This document shows positions 1,404-41,549 of a stretch of 52,229 nucleotides of DNA, in pieces. The stretch's first letter is position 1; each line of letters starts with the position of its first letter. The DNA is taken from IMG/VR virus record IMGVR_UViG_3300029787_000064, positions 1 to 52,229 of that record, one strand, 5' to 3'. Made by a program: the position numbers and the translations under genes. The notes below the pieces were generated by a model that saw nothing but the letters and a program-made list of their open reading frames with translations, ran no database searches and had not been told where the DNA came from. Origin of the DNA: a virus.

Positions 1404-1805
1404 TCAATTATTTATTTTTGACAACAGAAAGCCCATCTCTTTATCGCTTTGCGTGATGATTTTAGCGGGTAGAGGGTCTAAACTGTCCTTAATTGATGAT
1501 AAAGTGTCTTTTATTGACTTTCTTAGCCTTGTAATCCTATCCATGTCGTATTTTGTGAGTGGATCTTGGTGTTTTCTGACGTTATCGTACACTTTTTCTG
1601 CTTCTTCACCCCCATTTTGCAAAAATTGCAATGCCATGTGCACAGATACTGGCATTCTTTGTGTGCCATACTCATAATGACACCACGTTCTTAAGCTTAG
1701 TCCTATTTTTCTTGCTAATTTCACCTGACTCATGCCCAGATCTTTACGAAAATTGTAAATTTCTTTGCTTGTCAGGTCTGCATACCCGTAATCAGTTCGT
1801 TTCAT
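1404..1805 (-). CDS. XRE-family (Cro/CI-like) transcriptional regulator
   Basis: This 133-residue protein has a helix-turn-helix in its first half: YNFRKDLGMSQVKLARKIGL followed by SLRTWCHYEYGTQRMPVSV, the usual XRE pattern of a GMSQ turn and a recognition helix before a G-x-x-x-P segment. The C-terminal half is charged and probably helical, perhaps for dimerisation. The ATG at 1805 overlaps the end of the upstream 86-residue gene, with GAAAGGAAAGCC as ribosome-binding site. The gene is read from promoter P1, which itself carries the shared operator-like sequence, so autoregulation is plausible. It is the best candidate for the protein that binds the repeated operators, but this is inference. 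Confidence 0.8.
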   Translation of the reverse strand: MKRTDYGYADLTSKEIYNFRKDLGMSQVKLARKIGLSLRTWCHYEYGTQRMPVSVHMALQFLQNGGEEAEKVYDNVRKHQDPLTKYDMDRITRLRKSIKDTLSSIKDSLDPLPAKIITQSDKEMGFLLSKINN

Positions 1806-2052
1806 TGGCTTTCCTTTCGTCCATGTTTATTAAAATGTTATTTTTTTTCATGTCTGCAATTAATTCTTCCTTCGTGCCGTAACGATATGCCTTACCATTC
1901 CAGTCGCAGCAGGCATTGGCTACGCTCTTAAGAAGCGAAGACATCTCCATGCCCTTGCACCACAACGAAGTCGCTATCTCTTGCATTAAATGATTGTCAC
2001 CTCTGACATTGAACTCCCTTGTACGGGGGAGCTTGAATCTATATGTTGCCAT
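1792..2052 (-). CDS. Conserved-looking small protein, first gene of the P1 unit
   Basis: This 86-residue protein has no motif I recognise. It opens with a basic stretch (YRFKLPRTREF), has WCKGMEMSSLLKSVANACCDW in the middle, and ends in a charged tail. Its stop lies inside the start of the XRE regulator gene (14-base overlap), suggesting coupled translation. It starts about 20 bases downstream of the -10 of P1. Co-transcription with a regulator suggests an early or regulatory role, without direct evidence. Confidence 0.6.
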   Translation of the reverse strand: MATYRFKLPRTREFNVRGDNHLMQEIATSLWCKGMEMSSLLKSVANACCDWNGKAYRYGTKEELIADMKKNNILINMDERKANETN

Positions 2053-2312: not shown

Positions 2313-3530
2313 TTATCTTGGAATTGTTCTTATTCTCTCATTTAGATCTGCAAGCGTTTGATCATCCAATCCAGCAATTAAAGATATATCACCTCTTGAA
2401 TTTTCATCTTCAATCTTTTCAATGTCACCTGTTTCAACCTCTATATCTTTAGTAATTAAAACCTCGTAACCATTGTCACCATGATCTCTAGAATGACCAT
2501 AATCAACACCAAACTCTTGCTGATTATGAGTAACAACAAAAGACTTATAATGGTCATTGTCTCTGATCTCTGAAATAGTTCTACGAACTGATTGAGCATT
2601 GTTAATATTACAATGTTGCATAATTTCCCTAGTTGATCTTACTTGACCTCTACAAAACGCCCATAATTGACTTTTAACAGTGTTTGAAGATCTTCCAATA
2701 TAACTAGGGCTAGTTAACTGTTGAAGCTCTGTACGAGCTTTAAAACGTGTTTGAACAGTATGATCAATAATATTAGATAAAAACTTAAACCATGTTTTAA
2801 GTTTATTTATATCCAATGTTCCACCATGTGATCTATTCTCAAATGTTTTTTTTCCAAAATAGTGATTAATATTAAGAGCTGTATATTTATATATTGTTCT
2901 AGGTGCGTGAGAGTTTAAAACCTCTTTTAAACTTTCAATAGTTGGATTTGCTCTTAATATATCACTAGGTGATTTAGGAAATCTTGCATAGTAACAATCC
3001 CACCTAGAGCTTGCAATTGTACTCTTATAAAAATCAATCTCACTAGATATTCTATATCCAACATCCTTATAAACCTCTAATGGTAATTGAGTGAATGTAT
3101 TTGTATCTTCATTAAATTCGAACAATTGCTTGAGATTGTTCACATTTTCTAAATAACTATTTGAATGTCTTTTCATTTGAATTGATTTTCTAGTGAACTC
3201 TTCATTAGTTAAATCAGCTCTTATTGGTAATGTAGATAAATGAACATGAGCTGAACAATCTCTGTTTACATATCCACCATTAGAACTTACAAAATTACAA
3301 GCTTCTTTTAAATAGTCCCATGCAAGCTGACAATCTGCCAATACTGGCAAATCCATTTCCCATTGAGCTTGACTACCATCTGCTTTAATCTTTAAACCAT
3401 GAACTGGATTTGAACTTGATCTATTTATTTGATTTAAGACATAATCTGAATTTTGAGAGTTCATAAACTCTGGTTCAAATCCAAATGCAAACCTTGATTG
3501 ATTGCTGATATATTTAAATTTGTTCTTCAT
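2313..3530 (-). CDS. Putative amidoligase (glutamine-synthetase-like fold, phage type)
   Basis: The protein has 405 residues from ATG 3530. I chose this start because GGAAAGGAAA sits 9 bases upstream; the frame is open further up but lacks a ribosome-binding site. The N-terminal part shows the pattern of the putative amidoligase family: FGFEPEF at 16-22, KADGS then WEMD at 49-60, a VNRDCSAHVHL segment at 88-98, and later KYTALNINHYF and FENRSHGGTLD. These acidic and His residues match ATP/metal-binding positions of the glutamine-synthetase-like fold. Family members form peptide or amide bonds, and phage versions have been proposed to modify peptides or cell-wall material. A gamma-glutamylcyclotransferase-like gene lies just upstream, a pairing known for this family. 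It has its own promoter (P2) and terminator. The ribosome-binding site is complementary to the small RNA at 5139-5183. Confidence 0.75.
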   Translation of the reverse strand: MKNKFKYISNQSRFAFGFEPEFMNSQNSDYVLNQINRSSSNPVHGLKIKADGSQAQWEMDLPVLADCQLAWDYLKEACNFVSSNGGYVNRDCSAHVHLSTLPIRADLTNEEFTRKSIQMKRHSNSYLENVNNLKQLFEFNEDTNTFTQLPLEVYKDVGYRISSEIDFYKSTIASSRWDCYYARFPKSPSDILRANPTIESLKEVLNSHAPRTIYKYTALNINHYFGKKTFENRSHGGTLDINKLKTWFKFLSNIIDHTVQTRFKARTELQQLTSPSYIGRSSNTVKSQLWAFCRGQVRSTREIMQHCNINNAQSVRRTISEIRDNDHYKSFVVTHNQQEFGVDYGHSRDHGDNGYEVLITKDIEVETGDIEKIEDENSRGDISLIAGLDDQTLADLNERIRTIPR

Positions 3531-3579: not shown

Positions 3580-3608
3580 TGTATAGTAATCATTTCAATA
3601 GTAAAAAC
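3580..3608 (-). promoter_or_regulatory. Promoter P2 (amidoligase), weak -35
   Basis: On the minus strand the -10 is TATACA (3580-3585), with the operator-like GAAATGATTAC (3586-3596) directly upstream. The -35 region at the 17-base distance is only GTTTTT. A half-copy of the dispersed motif, CGAACAATT at 3608-3616, touches the -35 on its upstream side, so a protein bound there could help or block polymerase. Confidence 0.55.
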
Positions 3609-3704
3609 GAACAATTTCCAGCTCGAGAAAAAAAGCCAATAAAATCAATAACTTAAAAAAAATTTTTTTTTATTTTTTTTTATTTATAACCCTATAAAAG
3701 CACT

Positions 3705-3811
3705 GGAAGGTTGATGCTTCAGGAGTCAGATGGCTGCGAAGCCCGATCCCCGATCAGCCCGATCTGCTGCCTGCCCGATCCAGTACGAACAATTGTTCGC
3801 TCTCCAGCCAG
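3705..3811. repeat. GC-rich intergenic repeat block with perfect CGAACAATTGTTCG
   Basis: This block lies between the terminator of the cyclotransferase gene and P2. It contains several CCCGATC units, CTGCTGCCTGC, and the perfect 14-bp palindrome at 3786-3799. It is visibly richer in G and C than its AT-rich surroundings. No gene is apparent. Together with P2 and the terminator it accounts for the 329-base gene-free stretch 3531-3859. Confidence 0.7.
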
Positions 3812-3859: not shown

Positions 3860-4363
3860 TTACGCCCACTGCTTCCCACCGATTCTTTGATGGTGAACCA
3901 TTGGCTTTTCGCTTTCACGAAAACTCTCTATGATTGCTTTATCGATGTGGTTATCAATATCTGCATGGTAGAACTTGTCCCATACTCCCTTCAATCCATT
4001 CCTAATGCCTCTGACATAGATTGGACTCGGTGTATGAAAACCTTTGTAGTTCATGACATATACGAATCCAGTTATACTGTCTCCGTGCATTCCTTCGTAA
4101 CCAGTTACCTCAATCTTGTCATACAATGACGGATAACTCTCGAATCGATCCAAGGATCTTTCGCAAGACTCTGTGATCTCCCATATAACACAAGGGACAT
4201 ATTGATCGAATCCTTTGACAGGAACTATGTCTGCTACATTGTTAAACTTTAACCTGTAGCCGTAGATATGACCTCCACCAATAACTTTAGCTTTGGGACA
4301 TCTAATCGCCATAGCATCTTTGTTAGTGTTTGCTCCGTAAGCAAAATAAATCTTTTTCTGCAT
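3860..4363 (-). CDS. Gamma-glutamylcyclotransferase-like (AIG2/GGCT) protein
   Basis: This 167-residue protein carries the family signature: YFAYGAN at 6-12 (the loop that holds the substrate gamma-glutamyl group), a GYRLKFN strand at 35-41, and LDRFESYP with E75 at the place of the catalytic Glu. Enzymes of this fold release 5-oxoproline from gamma-glutamyl amines or peptides. The length is normal for a single-domain member. AAAGGAGAAAG precedes the ATG. It has its own promoter P3 and terminator and lies just upstream of the amidoligase. The pair may make and unmake gamma-glutamyl-type linkages, on the cell wall, a small molecule or a virion component. The substrate is unknown. Confidence 0.8.
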   Translation of the reverse strand: MQKKIYFAYGANTNKDAMAIRCPKAKVIGGGHIYGYRLKFNNVADIVPVKGFDQYVPCVIWEITESCERSLDRFESYPSLYDKIEVTGYEGMHGDSITGFVYVMNYKGFHTPSPIYVRGIRNGLKGVWDKFYHADIDNHIDKAIIESFRESEKPMVHHQRIGGKQWA

Positions 4364-4451: not shown

Positions 4452-4570
4452 AGCAGGAACGCAGCGTACAGCAGGTTTGTAACCACGAAGAATTGTTCGC
4501 ACTCGTCTTCCAGCAGGAAGCTGCTGCAGCGTACCTGCGAGTCGTTGAATACGAACAATTGTTCGGTTAC
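4452..4570. repeat. GC-rich intergenic repeat block with two motif copies
   Basis: This block contains CGAAGAATTGTTCG at 4486-4499 (one change from the palindrome), the perfect CGAACAATTGTTCG at 4552-4565, and repeated CAGCAGG/CTGCTGCAGC strings. It lies between the terminator of the 4619-5020 operon and P3, the same arrangement as the other blocks. Confidence 0.7.
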
Positions 4571-5402: not shown

Positions 5403-5843
5403 TTACCCCCTTTCTTTCCACAAAGTTAATGTTCCGTCTGTTGATTCTTCCTTACCGAAGTAAACAACTCCTCTCCAGTCTGGAGAAATTTCTTTGCCGC
5501 CATACCAGTCAGTAACTTTGAAAAGTTTGTTCTCTTTCGGATTGTACTCAACTTGGTCGTGATCTCCACACAATGTCCAAGAACTTCTCCACTTGCCTTT
5601 GACAAAAGCGTGAACATATTTCTTGTTTTCTGCTACCACTTTTTGTCTGGTCTTTTCATGGACAATAAATTGTGCATCATCCAATCTAGCCATATCGATG
5701 TACCCAACTGTGATCCATCTTTTTTTGCCTTCACAGTTTGGAATATTCATCTGGATACTATTTGTATAGCTTCTCAAGTTTCTGAACATTCTAACTTCTG
5801 TTCCGTCTGCTATACTTGTTTTTTCTAAGTAGTCTTTTTTCAT
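5403..5843 (-). CDS. 146-residue protein of unknown function
   Basis: I place the start at ATG 5843 because GGAAAGGAT lies just upstream; the longer open frame continues into the GC-rich repeat block and is not credible. The product is soluble, Trp- and Lys-rich, with MDYLEK-like charged N-terminus, GKKRWITVGYIDMARLDDAQF in the middle and FKVTDWYGGKEISPDWRGVVYFG near the end. No family is recognised. It is a one-gene unit with promoter P6 and its own terminator, the pattern of a phage accessory gene. Confidence 0.65.
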   Translation of the reverse strand: MKKDYLEKTSIADGTEVRMFRNLRSYTNSIQMNIPNCEGKKRWITVGYIDMARLDDAQFIVHEKTRQKVVAENKKYVHAFVKGKWRSSWTLCGDHDQVEYNPKENKLFKVTDWYGGKEISPDWRGVVYFGKEESTDGTLTLWKERG

Positions 5844-5876
5844 AACATATCCTTTCCTGTTGTTTGTTATGATTCT

Positions 5877-5905
5877 AATATAGCAATCATTACTACACTT
5901 GTCAA
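5877..5905 (-). promoter_or_regulatory. Promoter P6 with operator-like spacer
   Basis: On the minus strand: TTGACA, 17 bases, TATATT. The operator-like element is GTAATGATTGC on this strand (5883-5893), the opposite orientation to most others, which supports a symmetrical binding site. Confidence 0.85.
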
Positions 5906-5934
5906 CACCTTTTTTAATTTTTTTTATTTTTTTT

Positions 5935-6062
5935 TCGCAGCTAAAAAGTGCCAGTTTTTTTCTCCAGCAGCAGGACCTTCTGGAGTCGAACAATTGTTCG
6001 GACTCCTGAGGCTGCAGGAAGCTGGACCTGTAACCTGCTGGACCCAGATCCAGTACCAGCAC
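5935..6062. repeat. GC-rich dyad-symmetric repeat block with perfect palindrome
   Basis: The perfect CGAACAATTGTTCG at 5987-6000 is flanked by GGAGT on the left and GACTCC on the right, giving an almost complete 25-base palindrome. Outside it, CCAGCAGCAGG (left) and CTGCAGGAAGCTGG (right) extend the dyad. The unit could extrude as a long imperfect hairpin with the motif at its tip. It lies between the terminator at 6063 and promoter P6. Confidence 0.7.
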
Positions 6063-6407: not shown

Positions 6408-6803
6408 TTATCCTCTTTCTGTTTCGTTGAAGGCTACTTCTTCCAAAGCATACCAAGCCAATGCGTTTAATATCTGAGTATCAACCCCGTCATTCATTGT
6501 GGCTTGGTCAGGGTGCCCATGTATTGTGTCGGCTACCTCTGCCTGAGTGGGCTGGATGTCGTACAAACAATTAAAACCTTGCACCATCTCAAAAGCATTA
6601 ACGCCCAAATCGTTGGCTTGCTCTTTTAAATATTTGTAAATATGTTTAATGTTGTCTTTCGTAAATTTAACAGTTTCATTGTGATAAATGAAACCACCAA
6701 AACCCCCAGAAGCTCCACCATTAACCACATCTTTGAAAGTTTGCTGCACATCATCGCAATTTAATTGCTTGATAACTGCTTCTTTTATTTTTTCATAACT
6801 CAT
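6408..6803 (-). CDS. Phage protein of the DUF7222-like family
   Basis: This 131-residue protein contains VNGGASGGFGGFIYHNETV (28-46) and ends with NALAWYALEEVAFNETERG, the two conserved blocks I associate with a family of small soluble phage proteins of unknown function (DUF7222-like, from memory). TAAATCTCC on the plus strand (GGAGATTTA on minus) is the ribosome-binding site for ATG 6803. First gene of the P7 operon. Confidence 0.65.
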   Translation of the reverse strand: MSYEKIKEAVIKQLNCDDVQQTFKDVVNGGASGGFGGFIYHNETVKFTKDNIKHIYKYLKEQANDLGVNAFEMVQGFNCLYDIQPTQAEVADTIHGHPDQATMNDGVDTQILNALAWYALEEVAFNETERG

Positions 6804-6834: not shown

Positions 6835-6863
6835 AATATATAGTAATGATTGCATAGTGTCAA
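6835..6863 (-). promoter_or_regulatory. Promoter P7 with operator-like spacer
   Basis: On the minus strand: TTGACA, 17 bases, TATATT (or 15 bases to the overlapping TATATA). The operator-like GCAATCATTAC lies at 6843-6853. The leader carries CAGCCAAAGGAGA as at P3 and P4. Confidence 0.8.
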
Positions 6864-6894: not shown

Positions 6895-7495
6895 TTACAG
6901 CCTGGTGGCGACACCTGCAGCGTAACAACTGCGAACAATTGTGAGTATTCACCAGCACAGCAGCAGGTACACCTGGCGAAGGAGGCTTTGCAGCACCTGC
7001 TGGACCTCCCAGAACGAACAATTGTGAGCGTTCAGGACAGGACGCAGCGAGTCCCGATCCGATTCACCCCGATCCCGCCTGGGCAGCACACCCTGCTGGA
7101 CCTGACTCCGAACAATTGTGCGTGTTCAGCAGCAGGATACGCCTGGACAGCCTCCCGATCCCGATGCCTCCCCTGCTGCCTGACCAGGGCAGGACCCTGA
7201 AGACGAACAATTGTGAATATACAGCCTGCAGCAGGAGGCTAGGACAGCTTCGATCCCCGATGCTTAACCTGCTTCCAGCCCAGGCAGCATTCCTGAGTCC
7301 GAACAATTGTCGGTATTCACCCCGATGCAGGAGGCTGGAGCCCGATCCGATCCCGATAACCTGCACCTGAAAGCGAACAATTCTACGCATTGGCAGCGTA
7401 AAACATCCCGATCTATACTCCCGATCCCAATTCTACTGGAAATTGTTCGGTAACTCCGTGCCCAGATACGCCAAGTGCAGACCCCGATTGACCCA
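6895..7495. repeat. GC-rich array of six ~90-bp degenerate units carrying CGAACAATTGT
   Basis: CGAACAATT occurs at 6932, 7015, 7109, 7204, 7300 and 7374, all in the same orientation, spaced 83, 94, 95, 96 and 74 bases, with a reversed AATTGTTCG at 7441. Between copies, CAGCAGG/CCTGCTG and CCCGATC strings recur. Several units are dyad-symmetric: CCTGCTG before and CAGCAGG after the 7109 copy, GCAGG-n3-CTG before and CAG-CCTGC after the 7204 copy. I count 72 G/C in bases 7021-7140 (60%), far above neighbouring genes. Frames across the array (for example 7064-7390 minus) only translate the repeat. It lies immediately downstream of the small-terminase-like gene and upstream of P7, and accounts for the gene-free stretch 6864-7498. 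It is not a CRISPR: the identical part is only about 10 bases. Confidence 0.8.
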
Positions 7496-7498
7496 TAT

Positions 7499-8011
7499 TC
7501 AGCTATTTTTGCCTATCTTTTTTGGGTTTATCTGGGTAACTGTGGCTTTTTTCATTCGTTCCTGTGCTTTTCGTTGCAAATTGTCCAGTTCAGCTAGTAT
7601 ATCCTCCTTCGTCATGCTATCTACTTTCTCATGTAGCACATGAGCTTTGTTTATAAGCAGTCCAGAAGCCTTTAAGCGTAGTTCTTCAGCCCGAATAGCT
7701 TCGCTATACCTTTCCCGCTCCAAAGCCTCGTTACGGATCTTTAAAAGATCCCGAAGCGACTTATCAAGCGTTACACCAAACCTTGACCTATTCTCGTCAT
7801 ACATTTCCTGTAATCGCTCCTGTATAACTTCGTTACGAAGTAACCTTACTGCATCGACTGAAGGGTTACTATAACCAGCTTGTCGTGCTGACGCAGTTTG
7901 CGTCATATCTCTATGAACGAAGTTATCAAGAAAATCCTGTTGACGTTGCGTCAATCTTTTCAGTCCTTTTGCTCGTTGTTCCTTTGGTAAATTTTCGCCT
8001 ACTCTTGGCAT
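7499..8011 (-). CDS. terS: Terminase small subunit-like DNA-binding protein
   Basis: In this 170-residue protein, residues 20-60 read KRLTQRQQDFLDNFVHRDMT then TASARQAGYSNPSVDAVRLLRNEVIQ, the N-terminal helix-turn-helix of small terminases (QRQ-x-F-x-x-x-Y/F, then A-x-x-A-G-Y). A long charged helical region (residues 70-150) suits the oligomerisation domain. AAGGAGTAG precedes ATG 8011. Small terminases recognise the packaging site and load the large subunit. Here the gene is about 43 kb from TerL in this linear window rather than next to it, and is flanked by two repeat arrays (6895-7495 and 8060-8265), either of which could be its target. An alternative is a TerS-like regulator. Confidence 0.75.
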   Translation of the reverse strand: MPRVGENLPKEQRAKGLKRLTQRQQDFLDNFVHRDMTQTASARQAGYSNPSVDAVRLLRNEVIQERLQEMYDENRSRFGVTLDKSLRDLLKIRNEALERERYSEAIRAEELRLKASGLLINKAHVLHEKVDSMTKEDILAELDNLQRKAQERMKKATVTQINPKKIGKNS

Positions 8012-10875: not shown

Positions 10876-13036
10876 TATCCGTTGCTGTGGTTGCCTCATA
10901 TTCTCCAAGAGACATCACGCCATCTGTTGTGCCAAGCCATTTACGACCACCCGATGCTGAGAAAGAGTATTTCCCGACTCGTGATTCCTGAATAAGTTCA
11001 CGAACAATTCCATCAATACTTCGCTGTGTTAAGTTCTGCAGCACTCTCGGTGCATCAGCATCTGAAGCCATTCTTTGACTAATTGCATCTGCTCCCGATT
11101 GTTGTGTCAAGGCTCTTCCCTCCCGCTCACACGTTGCTATCCATGAGAACAAGGCATCTTTTTTAATCTCTCTATTTGTGCCAGAGTGTAGTCGTTTTAT
11201 CTCTTCAGTCTTGTCCTCTAATAATCCAGAATAACTACTTCTGACAAAATGTCTAATATTTCTATTCGCTGGACCATTTGATTTAACGACTGCACCATCA
11301 AAACATCTGTTTCGCTCATACTCTGTTCCGATGTCCATGCAACGTCTACGACCCGTAGCTTCATCGACTTGCCATAGTGCAAACGCACAACGCACACCAT
11401 CAACCAATGCACTTGTTCCTCTAATGAGTAACCTTGCTTGTTCAGGAGTATTAATAATTGTATCATCTTTAATCTTTGTCATGTGGTGACACATCACAAC
11501 TGACGCACCAGTTTCTGTTCCGATCTGTGCCAGTAAACCTGTCAAGGCAGCTCCTGCCGCTGGATCAGCATTTACATCAGCATGAACAAATGAAGCCAAA
11601 GGATCAAAAATAATAAGCTTTAAATCATTCATTTGCAGAATTTGTTCGTAAAGTTTATCAAATTCCTCACTGGTACTGTAGCCATCCCTCGTATCTTGAA
11701 GTATTGGAAACACACCTCCTACGTTAGGAAGTGACACGACTCGCAGCTCATGTCTGTACGAAAATCTTAAATTGTTCGGATCCAGACGCTCAATTCTCCT
11801 GTGCATTTCAGACTCATCATCCTCTGCCGTAAAGATAACAACATTGCCAAACTCCCCAATAGAGCTACCAAAACTCTCGGCTAACGGCTGACCCGAAGCT
11901 ACTTTCATAGCTAAATCCAATGTCATCATACCTTTACCAGCATCTCCCGCTGCAGAAAATATTATTGGCACGCCCAAAGGAAATGTCCCATCAACTAAAA
12001 ACTTTTGTTCGGGTGCAGATCCTTCAAACCGACTGACCAGTAAACTATCATCCAGTAAATTTATGTTACGTCTAGTATGCTTAACTGTTGTGTTTAAGAA
12101 ATGTTGTACATCAAAACTCTCTGATATCGCATCAACGGCATCCCATCCTTCTGGTTTACCTCTTGGTGGCGTTAAGGTTGTTACTGATTTTGCACCAGCA
12201 TTAAGTGCCAGTTCTTGCACCAATTCAGCAACTTTACGTCCAGCGTTATCATTGTCCCCCCAAATAATTAATTCTTTGTCATGTAATGGTGAAAAGTCAA
12301 ATCGACTTGATGACTTACGAGAAAGCATACCCGCTCCTCCCATTGTACACGTTGCCGTATATCCGATTTCATTAAGTGCATCAGCACACTTCTCTCCCTC
12401 AACCCATATAACTTTCTCTGACGCAACAACATTCGGCAGATTATACAAAGGTCTTACATCAGGTATCTTTGGATAAGACGCATCTGTAAATTGTCTAAAT
12501 TCTTTTTTTGGTTTGCCATGACTGTCCATGACTGGATTACCATTTTCATCTCTAATATTGTATCTTCGAACACGACATAAGAGTTCACCATCAACTGACA
12601 AATAAATATGTTCGTGATCAAATGGCGTGTTAATGTCATATGTTTTTTTAAATGTTACGCTTAATTCTTTTGGAATATCAGGTTCTGATGGAGCTGTATC
12701 GTCCAGGTAGTTTCCGAACAATTCTTTGATTTCAGGTAACATCATGTTTCTACCCTCCATTAAAATCTTAACAATACCACCAACACCTTCGGCTCCGTTG
12801 AAGTCTGATCCCTTCATAAAATAAGGTGATCTTGGATTAATATCTATTTTTAAAGATTTGCCTGGCTCTCCACTTAAAGACCCGATTGTAAATACATCTC
12901 CCCTGATTTCTCCATGTGGATAAGTGTCCCGAAGAGCGTTAATTTGCACACTAGCTGGGACTTTCTGACTAATCATATCGACTAATTCATTGGCTGACAT
13001 ATCCCTATTCTTATTGCCAAATTTTATAATGTTCAT
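10868..13036 (-). CDS. Primase-helicase: Toprim domain plus RepA-like hexameric ATPase
   Basis: In this 722-residue protein, residues ~195-300 form a Toprim domain: VIWVEGEKCADAL with E214 and LIIWGDNDNAG with D261/D263 as metal-binding acids. Residues ~345-600 form a RepA/AAA_25-type helicase: Walker A-like SAAGDAGKGMMT (361-372), Walker B LIIFDPL (474-480), then MCHHMT (515-520). The N-terminal ~110 residues have no cysteine zinc finger. The C-terminus looks like a winged helix. Such proteins prime and unwind at phage forks. GTGAGGT precedes the ATG. The gene ends the replication operon. No DNA polymerase is present in the window. Confidence 0.85.
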   Translation of the reverse strand: MNIIKFGNKNRDMSANELVDMISQKVPASVQINALRDTYPHGEIRGDVFTIGSLSGEPGKSLKIDINPRSPYFMKGSDFNGAEGVGGIVKILMEGRNMMLPEIKELFGNYLDDTAPSEPDIPKELSVTFKKTYDINTPFDHEHIYLSVDGELLCRVRRYNIRDENGNPVMDSHGKPKKEFRQFTDASYPKIPDVRPLYNLPNVVASEKVIWVEGEKCADALNEIGYTATCTMGGAGMLSRKSSSRFDFSPLHDKELIIWGDNDNAGRKVAELVQELALNAGAKSVTTLTPPRGKPEGWDAVDAISESFDVQHFLNTTVKHTRRNINLLDDSLLVSRFEGSAPEQKFLVDGTFPLGVPIIFSAAGDAGKGMMTLDLAMKVASGQPLAESFGSSIGEFGNVVIFTAEDDESEMHRRIERLDPNNLRFSYRHELRVVSLPNVGGVFPILQDTRDGYSTSEEFDKLYEQILQMNDLKLIIFDPLASFVHADVNADPAAGAALTGLLAQIGTETGASVVMCHHMTKIKDDTIINTPEQARLLIRGTSALVDGVRCAFALWQVDEATGRRRCMDIGTEYERNRCFDGAVVKSNGPANRNIRHFVRSSYSGLLEDKTEEIKRLHSGTNREIKKDALFSWIATCEREGRALTQQSGADAISQRMASDADAPRVLQNLTQRSIDGIVRELIQESRVGKYSFSASGGRKWLGTTDGVMSLGEYEATTATDNV

Positions 13037-22300: not shown

Positions 22301-22534
22301 GTTTTCAGCAACACTCAAAGCAGAACGCAAAGCATTACTTTTAATACCAGTGCTACTATCGAACAATTGTTCGAGTTTATCAGCAGTATTTGGTTCTTCT
22401 TTAGACATTAATTGTCCAGTGCCTGACTGCCTAATAATATTATTTATTTGTATTGATTCTTCAAGTGTAGGCTTATCACCTACAATTGTGATATTAACTT
22501 TACCCTGTGGTGTATTTAAAACTACTTTACCCAT
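19319..22534 (-). CDS. Large internal virion / ejection protein
   Basis: In this 1071-residue protein, residues ~132-190 form a hydrophobic Gly/Ala segment (LVGGVGGAIAGQIAIPIPILG and following AAIGAGIGAGGG) that could insert into membranes. Most of the rest is Lys/Asp/Asn-rich and helical, and the C-terminus is Ala/Asn/Pro/Gln-rich. Position at the end of the tail genes, beside lysozyme and other internal-type proteins, fits podovirus ejection proteins that form a channel across the host envelope. A perfect dispersed palindrome lies in codons for EQLFD (22360-22373). Confidence 0.7.
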   Translation of the reverse strand: MGKVVLNTPQGKVNITIVGDKPTLEESIQINNIIRQSGTGQLMSKEEPNTADKLEQLFDSSTGIKSNALRSALSVAENNEEEDAILRKFDLSDDDFLRDNRGRLALTPTGASKFGQETDRNILIDEEGFSKYDFSDLAGIVPELVGGVGGAIAGQIAIPIPILGAAIGAGIGAGGGQAVEELGEAVAGVQKQDIGDIAKDVGKEATIGFVSDLTFGLAAGAFRAVRRGVTPGKDLTATELDTAGLSTSPPIDEAGNVIKPTDFARLSADEKIAAVNRTVTLEDGTVVRGGFGVKPTLSAIRAPSLVARIQAIGEKIFKTSDRLKNNNDVIKQVIDAYKEKFGLEGADAVDVGDILKRGMVDNNEQLIKAEKKAQKEIIAQMKGAVGVFKRAADENSSVDDDLFDIFKNASDQFDTFISGKFKAVDDILRDDAGSGRAGVMFINHFTDHLKRIKSDYAPQIAAKDPDGKAFQNIIDSFESVGGKLKFPKPDEKPGSFVDTSLKDPISFNQLYNLRKTLSDLRMSSNDTVKQELTNVNGTGLLDEVDNMFKQMGDEDSQLFRDLSGRLGNIGISANKFKNAGKTLKGAQAEFFEGRSMLEDLYASQSIKNLNNYKTMPGQKDKSPMNIDIYRNVVKANNPQFLQRAADFLREYGTGAKGLDDTVKTGDELANEFIARAANQFLEDAIETSGIKNFKNVKDFNGTKFQMAIKGLGTTAKELFGDKTDEILKLSDEIGGVKISGLQARNVLDQYRDAIGDSESMSGLIDKLTALSETQKILVREQRNRIINKLQDEALDLDPLEAARFLVQKQTKNSEIKPIMNYFAKNQDRAAEQKIRSYYISSMIDDFGESVMTDGKSLNAFADRILAAAEDGKLRTIFPGGVGESMEKFGKILKFNARAAEGGDLVAANIAASPFQNLGKLAKFTILGNRMLSQSYYDDIISQFNGITLKQFKKPADRAKSLGSIIGKALSQSTGQTIDNAINEAEDQIDAVLESSGVKSQIQNVTQQIGPAINQARTGINQVRNVGSAPTINPPAAGTQLAGVNISNPANAFSLGLSPQNIAIAQRTRGTP
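22360..22373. repeat. Perfect CGAACAATTGTTCG inside a coding region
   Basis: The palindrome is translated on the minus strand as EQLF plus the start of D, near the N-terminus of the 1071-residue protein. It is one of five perfect copies in the window. Confidence 0.8.
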
Positions 22535-41535: not shown

Positions 41536-41549
41536 CGAACAATTGTTCG
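41536..41549. repeat. Perfect CGAACAATTGTTCG between capsid stop and terminator
   Basis: The palindrome starts one base after the capsid stop codon and precedes the terminator hairpin by about nine bases. It is the only intergenic perfect copy in the late region. Confidence 0.8.

Follow-up and report, generated by a model that had tools for sequence, protein, structure and literature searches.

Cluster A mycobacteriophages such as L5 and Bxb1 carry stoperators, copies of a short site that number 20–30 or more across the phage genome, and between relatives the stoperator motif and its cognate protein vary together (PMC6550527). In phage SPP1, the packaging site (pac) overlaps the start of the gene for the small terminase subunit, terS (PMC6316719). 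Amidoligases are frequent in phages, and their role there is guesswork. The locus described here combines an array of short sites, an adjacent terS gene and an amidoligase.

The stretch of DNA analysed (the window) comprises 52.2 kb of the 54.0-kb viral record of an uncultured marine phage. Its GC-rich array (Table 1) has a G+C content of 0.566, against 0.372 for the window, and the jump to ~60% noted in a sequence-only reading is borne out by the 0.600 measured over 7021–7140. The six motif copies of that reading are found at the positions it gave and in one orientation, with spacings of 83, 94, 95, 96 and 74 bp; they read CGAACAATT(GT), and a seventh, inverted CGAACAATT lies beyond them, giving seven copies within 6932–7449. 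With 39 copies in the window versus 0.52 in shuffles, CGAACAATT is the most over-represented 9-mer of the window, and the array is not due to chance. The units are dyad-symmetric as proposed, but the dyad is the motif itself, with a 24-bp consensus GAnTnCGnACAATTGTTCGnAnTC in the window's clade, and not the CCTGCTG/CAGCAGG arms; these words are enriched (20 vs 4.8), but a fixed register with the motif was not seen. CCCGATC, a similar word, is retained by phages that have lost the motif. This AT-rich phage family has GC-rich intergenic spacers with CCCGATC or CGGGATCGGG words (in the window at 7053–7426 and 3742–3780), and they are still present in the motif-less loci L413 and L415.

Two other readings of the array were rejected. 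For an RNA element, Rfam gave no match, the fold z-scores were −0.86 and −0.93, and the orientation of the sites differs among relatives; for a coding function, the profile of the relatives shows no conserved ORF across the array. A search for tRNAs found none.

Table 1. Positions in the window of the array sites, the dispersed sites and the associated genes.
Feature	Position	Strand	Remarks
XRE-type HTH regulator	1404..1805	-	kept in motif-less L415
86-aa protein, no known domain	1792..2052	-	co-absent with ligase in motif-less phages (confounder)
Amidoligase with C-terminal winged helix, proposed site binder	2313..3530	-	Amidoligase_2; pLDDT 90; co-occurrence with motif
Predicted winged-helix domain of ligase	2406..2723	-	residues 270-375
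CGAACAATT, putative autoregulatory site	3608..3616	+	directly upstream of ligase promoter-like 3598-3570
Full palindrome CGAACAATTGTTCG	3786..3799		intergenic
GGACT/AIG2-like gamma-glutamyl cyclotransferase	3860..4363	-	ligase partner gene
Full palindrome	4552..4565		intergenic
Full palindrome	5987..6000		inside GC-rich spacer DNA
Sigma-70-like promoter TTGACA-17-TATATT	6835..6863	-	beside array, fires into DUF7222 gene
GC-rich non-coding array region	6895..7495	none	directly 3' of terS; conserved in 85 distinct relatives
Array site 1 (CGAACAATTGTGAG)	6932..6945	+	
Array site 2	7015..7028	+	
Array site 3	7109..7122	+	
Array site 4	7204..7217	+	
Array site 5	7300..7313	+	
Array site 6	7374..7387	+	
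Array site 7, inverted	7441..7449	-	closest to terS stop; position and orientation recur in many relatives
terS, small terminase subunit	7499..8011	-	Terminase_2, phrog_51
Dispersed site, primase gene	11001..11009	+	in 82% of motif-rich relatives
Dispersed site, primase gene	11770..11778	-	in 96% of motif-rich relatives
Dispersed site, primase gene	12715..12723	+	in 82% of motif-rich relatives; 99.1st percentile among its 9-mers
Full palindrome	22360..22373		within ejection-protein-like gene
Full palindrome	41536..41549		between late genes

The array is conserved. Relatives were collected with a terS query (30 loci) and a terS alignment (80 loci), and every one of 85 distinct downstream regions holds 3–8 core TTGTTCG sites over ~600 b from the terS stop, where shuffled sequence has 0.07 per 600 b. 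The 85 arrays group into 14 sequence clusters; when one array per cluster is counted, 63 sites run with terS and 15 against it. Adjacent sites of the same orientation prefer spacings that are multiples of 10.5 bp (V = 0.335, jitter p = 0.0002), an effect that is weaker when only distinct spacings are counted (p = 0.024). The array spacings are thus close to whole helical turns, about 4 to 9, which would place a bound protein on one face of the DNA, from where it could build a cooperative or looped complex.

The motif is absent from HTVC027P, DSL-LC04 and 023Pt_psg01. The terS–terL interval of the pelagiphage HTVC027P (L116, 15780–18219) has its own CAAGC-rich spacer repeats in place of the motif, and 023Pt_psg01 (L118) strongly over-represents GGTGGTGG, with 42 copies against 0.55 expected. 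A terS search of 84,980 prokaryote genomes for a prophage or host found no relative. Matches to TerL in genome assemblies are MAG contigs of mixed taxa, the closest (L277 and L278, 78–79%) coming from contigs of Maricaulis and Hellea MAGs, which hints weakly at alphaproteobacterial hosts. A dispersed motif shared with the host, of the HIP or uptake type, was rejected, though not in a fully settled way: of six MAGs of candidate hosts, most have CGAACAATT near its reversed control, and the excess in G001 (75 vs 12) and G003 (33 vs 13) is not decisive because many of the copies cluster in short, possibly phage contigs.

About 30 further sites lie in the window outside the array. They run through early and replication genes, most of them distant from terS, and the array is the densest part of this site set, which extends across the genome's early half. 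Over 13.5 kb, the window's long genes for replication and ejection hold 11 copies versus 0.54 in codon shuffles, and its structural genes hold one in 17.5 kb; the relatives show the same gradient. In the primase gene of the reference L040, three of the four sites are among the top 1% of conserved 9-mers in motif-rich relatives (82–96% of sequences). These three match three sites in the window's primase and are missing from motif-poor relatives, and their conservation reflects selection on nucleotides inside the coding sequence. The dispersed coding sites are mostly half-sites and occur in both orientations (18 sense and 18 antisense in G008, 13 and 14 in G010), the orientation bias being confined to the arrays.

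The protein proposed to bind these sites is encoded 4 kb from the array. A ribosome-binding site accompanies the ATG at 3530, and a longer ORF starting from a TTG extends to 3614. The enzyme part matches Amidoligase_2 (PF12224) with 26–52 bits (cut-off 22) and keeps the invariant E, H, D, R and K residues; an AlphaFold2 model of the ligase (pLDDT 90.4) aligns with YbdK, glutamine synthetase and PafA/Dop (Z 9–11), which predicts a glutamine-synthetase fold. A separate model of the last 106 residues (pLDDT 85) shows the order helix-strand-helix-helix-strand-wing-strand. Its best neighbours in structure are regulators of the winged-helix type, BirA (8fi3, 2ewn) among them, at middling Z-scores of 6.4–7.4 and with Foldseek E-values above 0.1. 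Of 28 family members, 20 match DUF3489 in this domain and six match HTH_24; the winged helix of the window's own copy has no Pfam match, so that the assignment is a prediction drawn from relatives and models. Searching PDB sequences with the profile of the ligase yielded no useful match, and a literature search found no paper on a phage ligase carrying a winged helix. Before the ligase start, a dyad match of at least 10/14 occurs in 65% of 26 relatives versus 3.5% in shuffles. This marks a putative operator at the gene's own promoter, and the CGAACAATT copy next to that promoter in the window suggests autoregulation.

Presence of the motif follows presence of the ligase gene. Among 93 terS loci with enough flank, many of them overlapping on the same contigs, 90 have both the ligase and the motif or array and three have neither. 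In a further set, 43 of 49 loci with the ligase exceed 0.3 exact 9-mers/kb, and all 13 without it are motif-less, although these 13 include contigs repeated from the first set and three loci (L524–L526) discounted as terS-family negatives, since tblastn found only remote TerS there and no close one. The GGACT gene is absent from five motif-positive loci and is therefore not required for the motif. In the lineage with the recognition helix RRTINT, 29% of 8-mer sites are AATTGTTCG (AATT), compared with at least 91% in all other helix types. This lineage combines a relaxed motif with a changed recognition helix, a correlation from a single lineage, and the ARTVNT helix, at 0.91 AATT, breaks a simple helix–motif rule. 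The link between protein and site is correlative as a whole, and the 86-aa gene is co-lost with the ligase.

The loss of the motif is seen most clearly in the clade with L036-type terS, where seven loci (L406, L410 and L413–L417) have no motif in the array region and nearly none elsewhere. They form one close, possibly mosaic group in which only L415 spans the whole region; with the remote outgroups added, the independent loss events remain few. L415 has no array and a single dispersed site left: of three aligned sites in the primase region of L408, one is kept and two are destroyed. It retains the primase and an XRE gene, but the genes for the amidoligase, the GGACT protein and the 86-aa protein are missing. 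A GP88-like gene (L415:11584–12366; also in L466–L527) occupies the place of the ligase and GGACT genes. Phages with the GP88-like gene lack CGAACAATT.

We consider it fairly likely that the array is an operator cluster for a BirA-like protein, both ligase and DNA-binding, which probably controls the early region. Binding would most likely be through the winged helix of the amidoligase fusion, with the protein recognising the dyad CGAAC-AATT-GTTCG as full sites and as half-sites. Since the array comes and goes with the ligase, it probably consists of control sites for this protein and not of a packaging signal. The sites over early and replication genes would let the ligase protein control that region, acting as an enzyme and, through its own winged helix, as a regulator. 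The number of dispersed coding half-sites exceeds the usual needs of gene regulation and counts against an operator reading. Among the roles suggested in the sequence-only reading, a protein-binding array is supported and a repressor sink or operator cluster comes nearest, with the amidoligase winged helix, not TerS, as the likely binder.

The packaging role that it also listed, a pac site bound by the adjacent TerS in the manner of the lambda, SPP1 and P1 R sites or pac boxes, is weakened and now unlikely. The array lies directly 3' of terS in 85/85 distinct arrays, a phased multi-site arrangement would suit TerS oligomers, and the HTH region of this Terminase_2 protein is well conserved. However, L415 has neither array nor motif beside a TerS identical in 174/175 residues to that of L408, while its neighbours keep both; moreover, most sites are far from terS, and the motif covaries with another protein, the ligase. 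Position beside terS alone should not earn such arrays the pac label.

It is conceivable, at rather long odds, that an active amidoligase is brought to CGAACAATT by its winged helix and there modifies either the DNA itself, by forming an amide at the amino group of a base, or proteins bound at the site. If true, this would be a sequence-addressed system of covalent modification that marks the genome's early half.

It is very improbable that the array serves as a replication origin or as a set of iterons for the primase-helicase or some other replication protein. The sites are concentrated around replication genes and the array is non-coding and phased, but the motif is gone in L415 although its primase is 96% identical to that of L408. 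Iteron spacings are typically much shorter than the 40–96 bp that separate the sites here. GC skew, which the sequence-only reading had named as a check, locates no origin: it is negative in all 1-kb bins except one zero (47–48 kb) and never turns at the array. It is just as doubtful that the 86-aa protein, alone or complexed with the ligase, recognises the site: it is co-absent with the ligase in all motif-less phages examined, but it has no Pfam domain, and the ligase already offers a winged helix.

The XRE regulator seems, from promoter comparisons, to have operators other than CGAACAATT, namely dyads inside early promoters. In genomes with one type of XRE recognition helix, the spacers of early sigma-70-like promoters share the dyad GYAATSATTRC, and a putative operator of this regulator, GTAATGATTGC at 6843–6853, lies within the promoter beside the array; genomes with another recognition helix have mostly GGYATTSAATRCC-like promoter dyads, G012 being an exception. 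Genes matching Phage_L5_gp82 (5403–6062) and DUF7222 (6408–6803) flank the array, with a similar early promoter before each. The least probable reading, that the array sites are operators of this ordinary phage repressor, has in its favour that every relative with a contig across the region carries the gene and that such proteins usually bind dyads, but the CGAACAATT core stays constant while the promoter dyads differ, and L415 keeps an XRE gene and has lost the motif.

In this lineage, fusion to a predicted DNA-binding domain, an enriched and conserved cognate site and natural knock-outs make the role of a phage amidoligase directly testable and put a binding assay within easy reach. The family occurs widely in viral contigs from the sea, so that the system could be a common one there.

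Compared with known systems, the array resembles SPP1 pac, lambda cosB and P1 pac in having several spaced protein sites near terS. It differs from them in that it is lost without a change in TerS and that sites also lie at a distance, and from SPP1 pac in lying after the end of terS. With tens of copies of one short site, the phage recalls the L5-type stoperators; stoperators, however, mainly follow the direction of transcription, whereas the dispersed sites here occur in both orientations, the sites form an array beside terS, and the terS query found no relative in the 84,980 prokaryote genomes. Amidoligase folds with a partner enzyme nearby are also found in OM43 phages, Pseudomonas phage tf and Arthrobacter phages. 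These amidoligases match the enzyme part only (residues 16–273 of the L408 query) and never the winged helix, and the partner here is a cyclotransferase (GGACT), not a GATase. In design the protein would resemble BirA in being a ligase with a winged-helix DNA-binding domain (here predicted) and a probable operator at its own promoter (here from sequence only). In contrast with BirA, the enzyme is an amidoligase of glutamine-synthetase fold instead of a biotin ligase, its winged helix sits at the C-terminal end, and tens of sites and a phased array take the place of a single operator.
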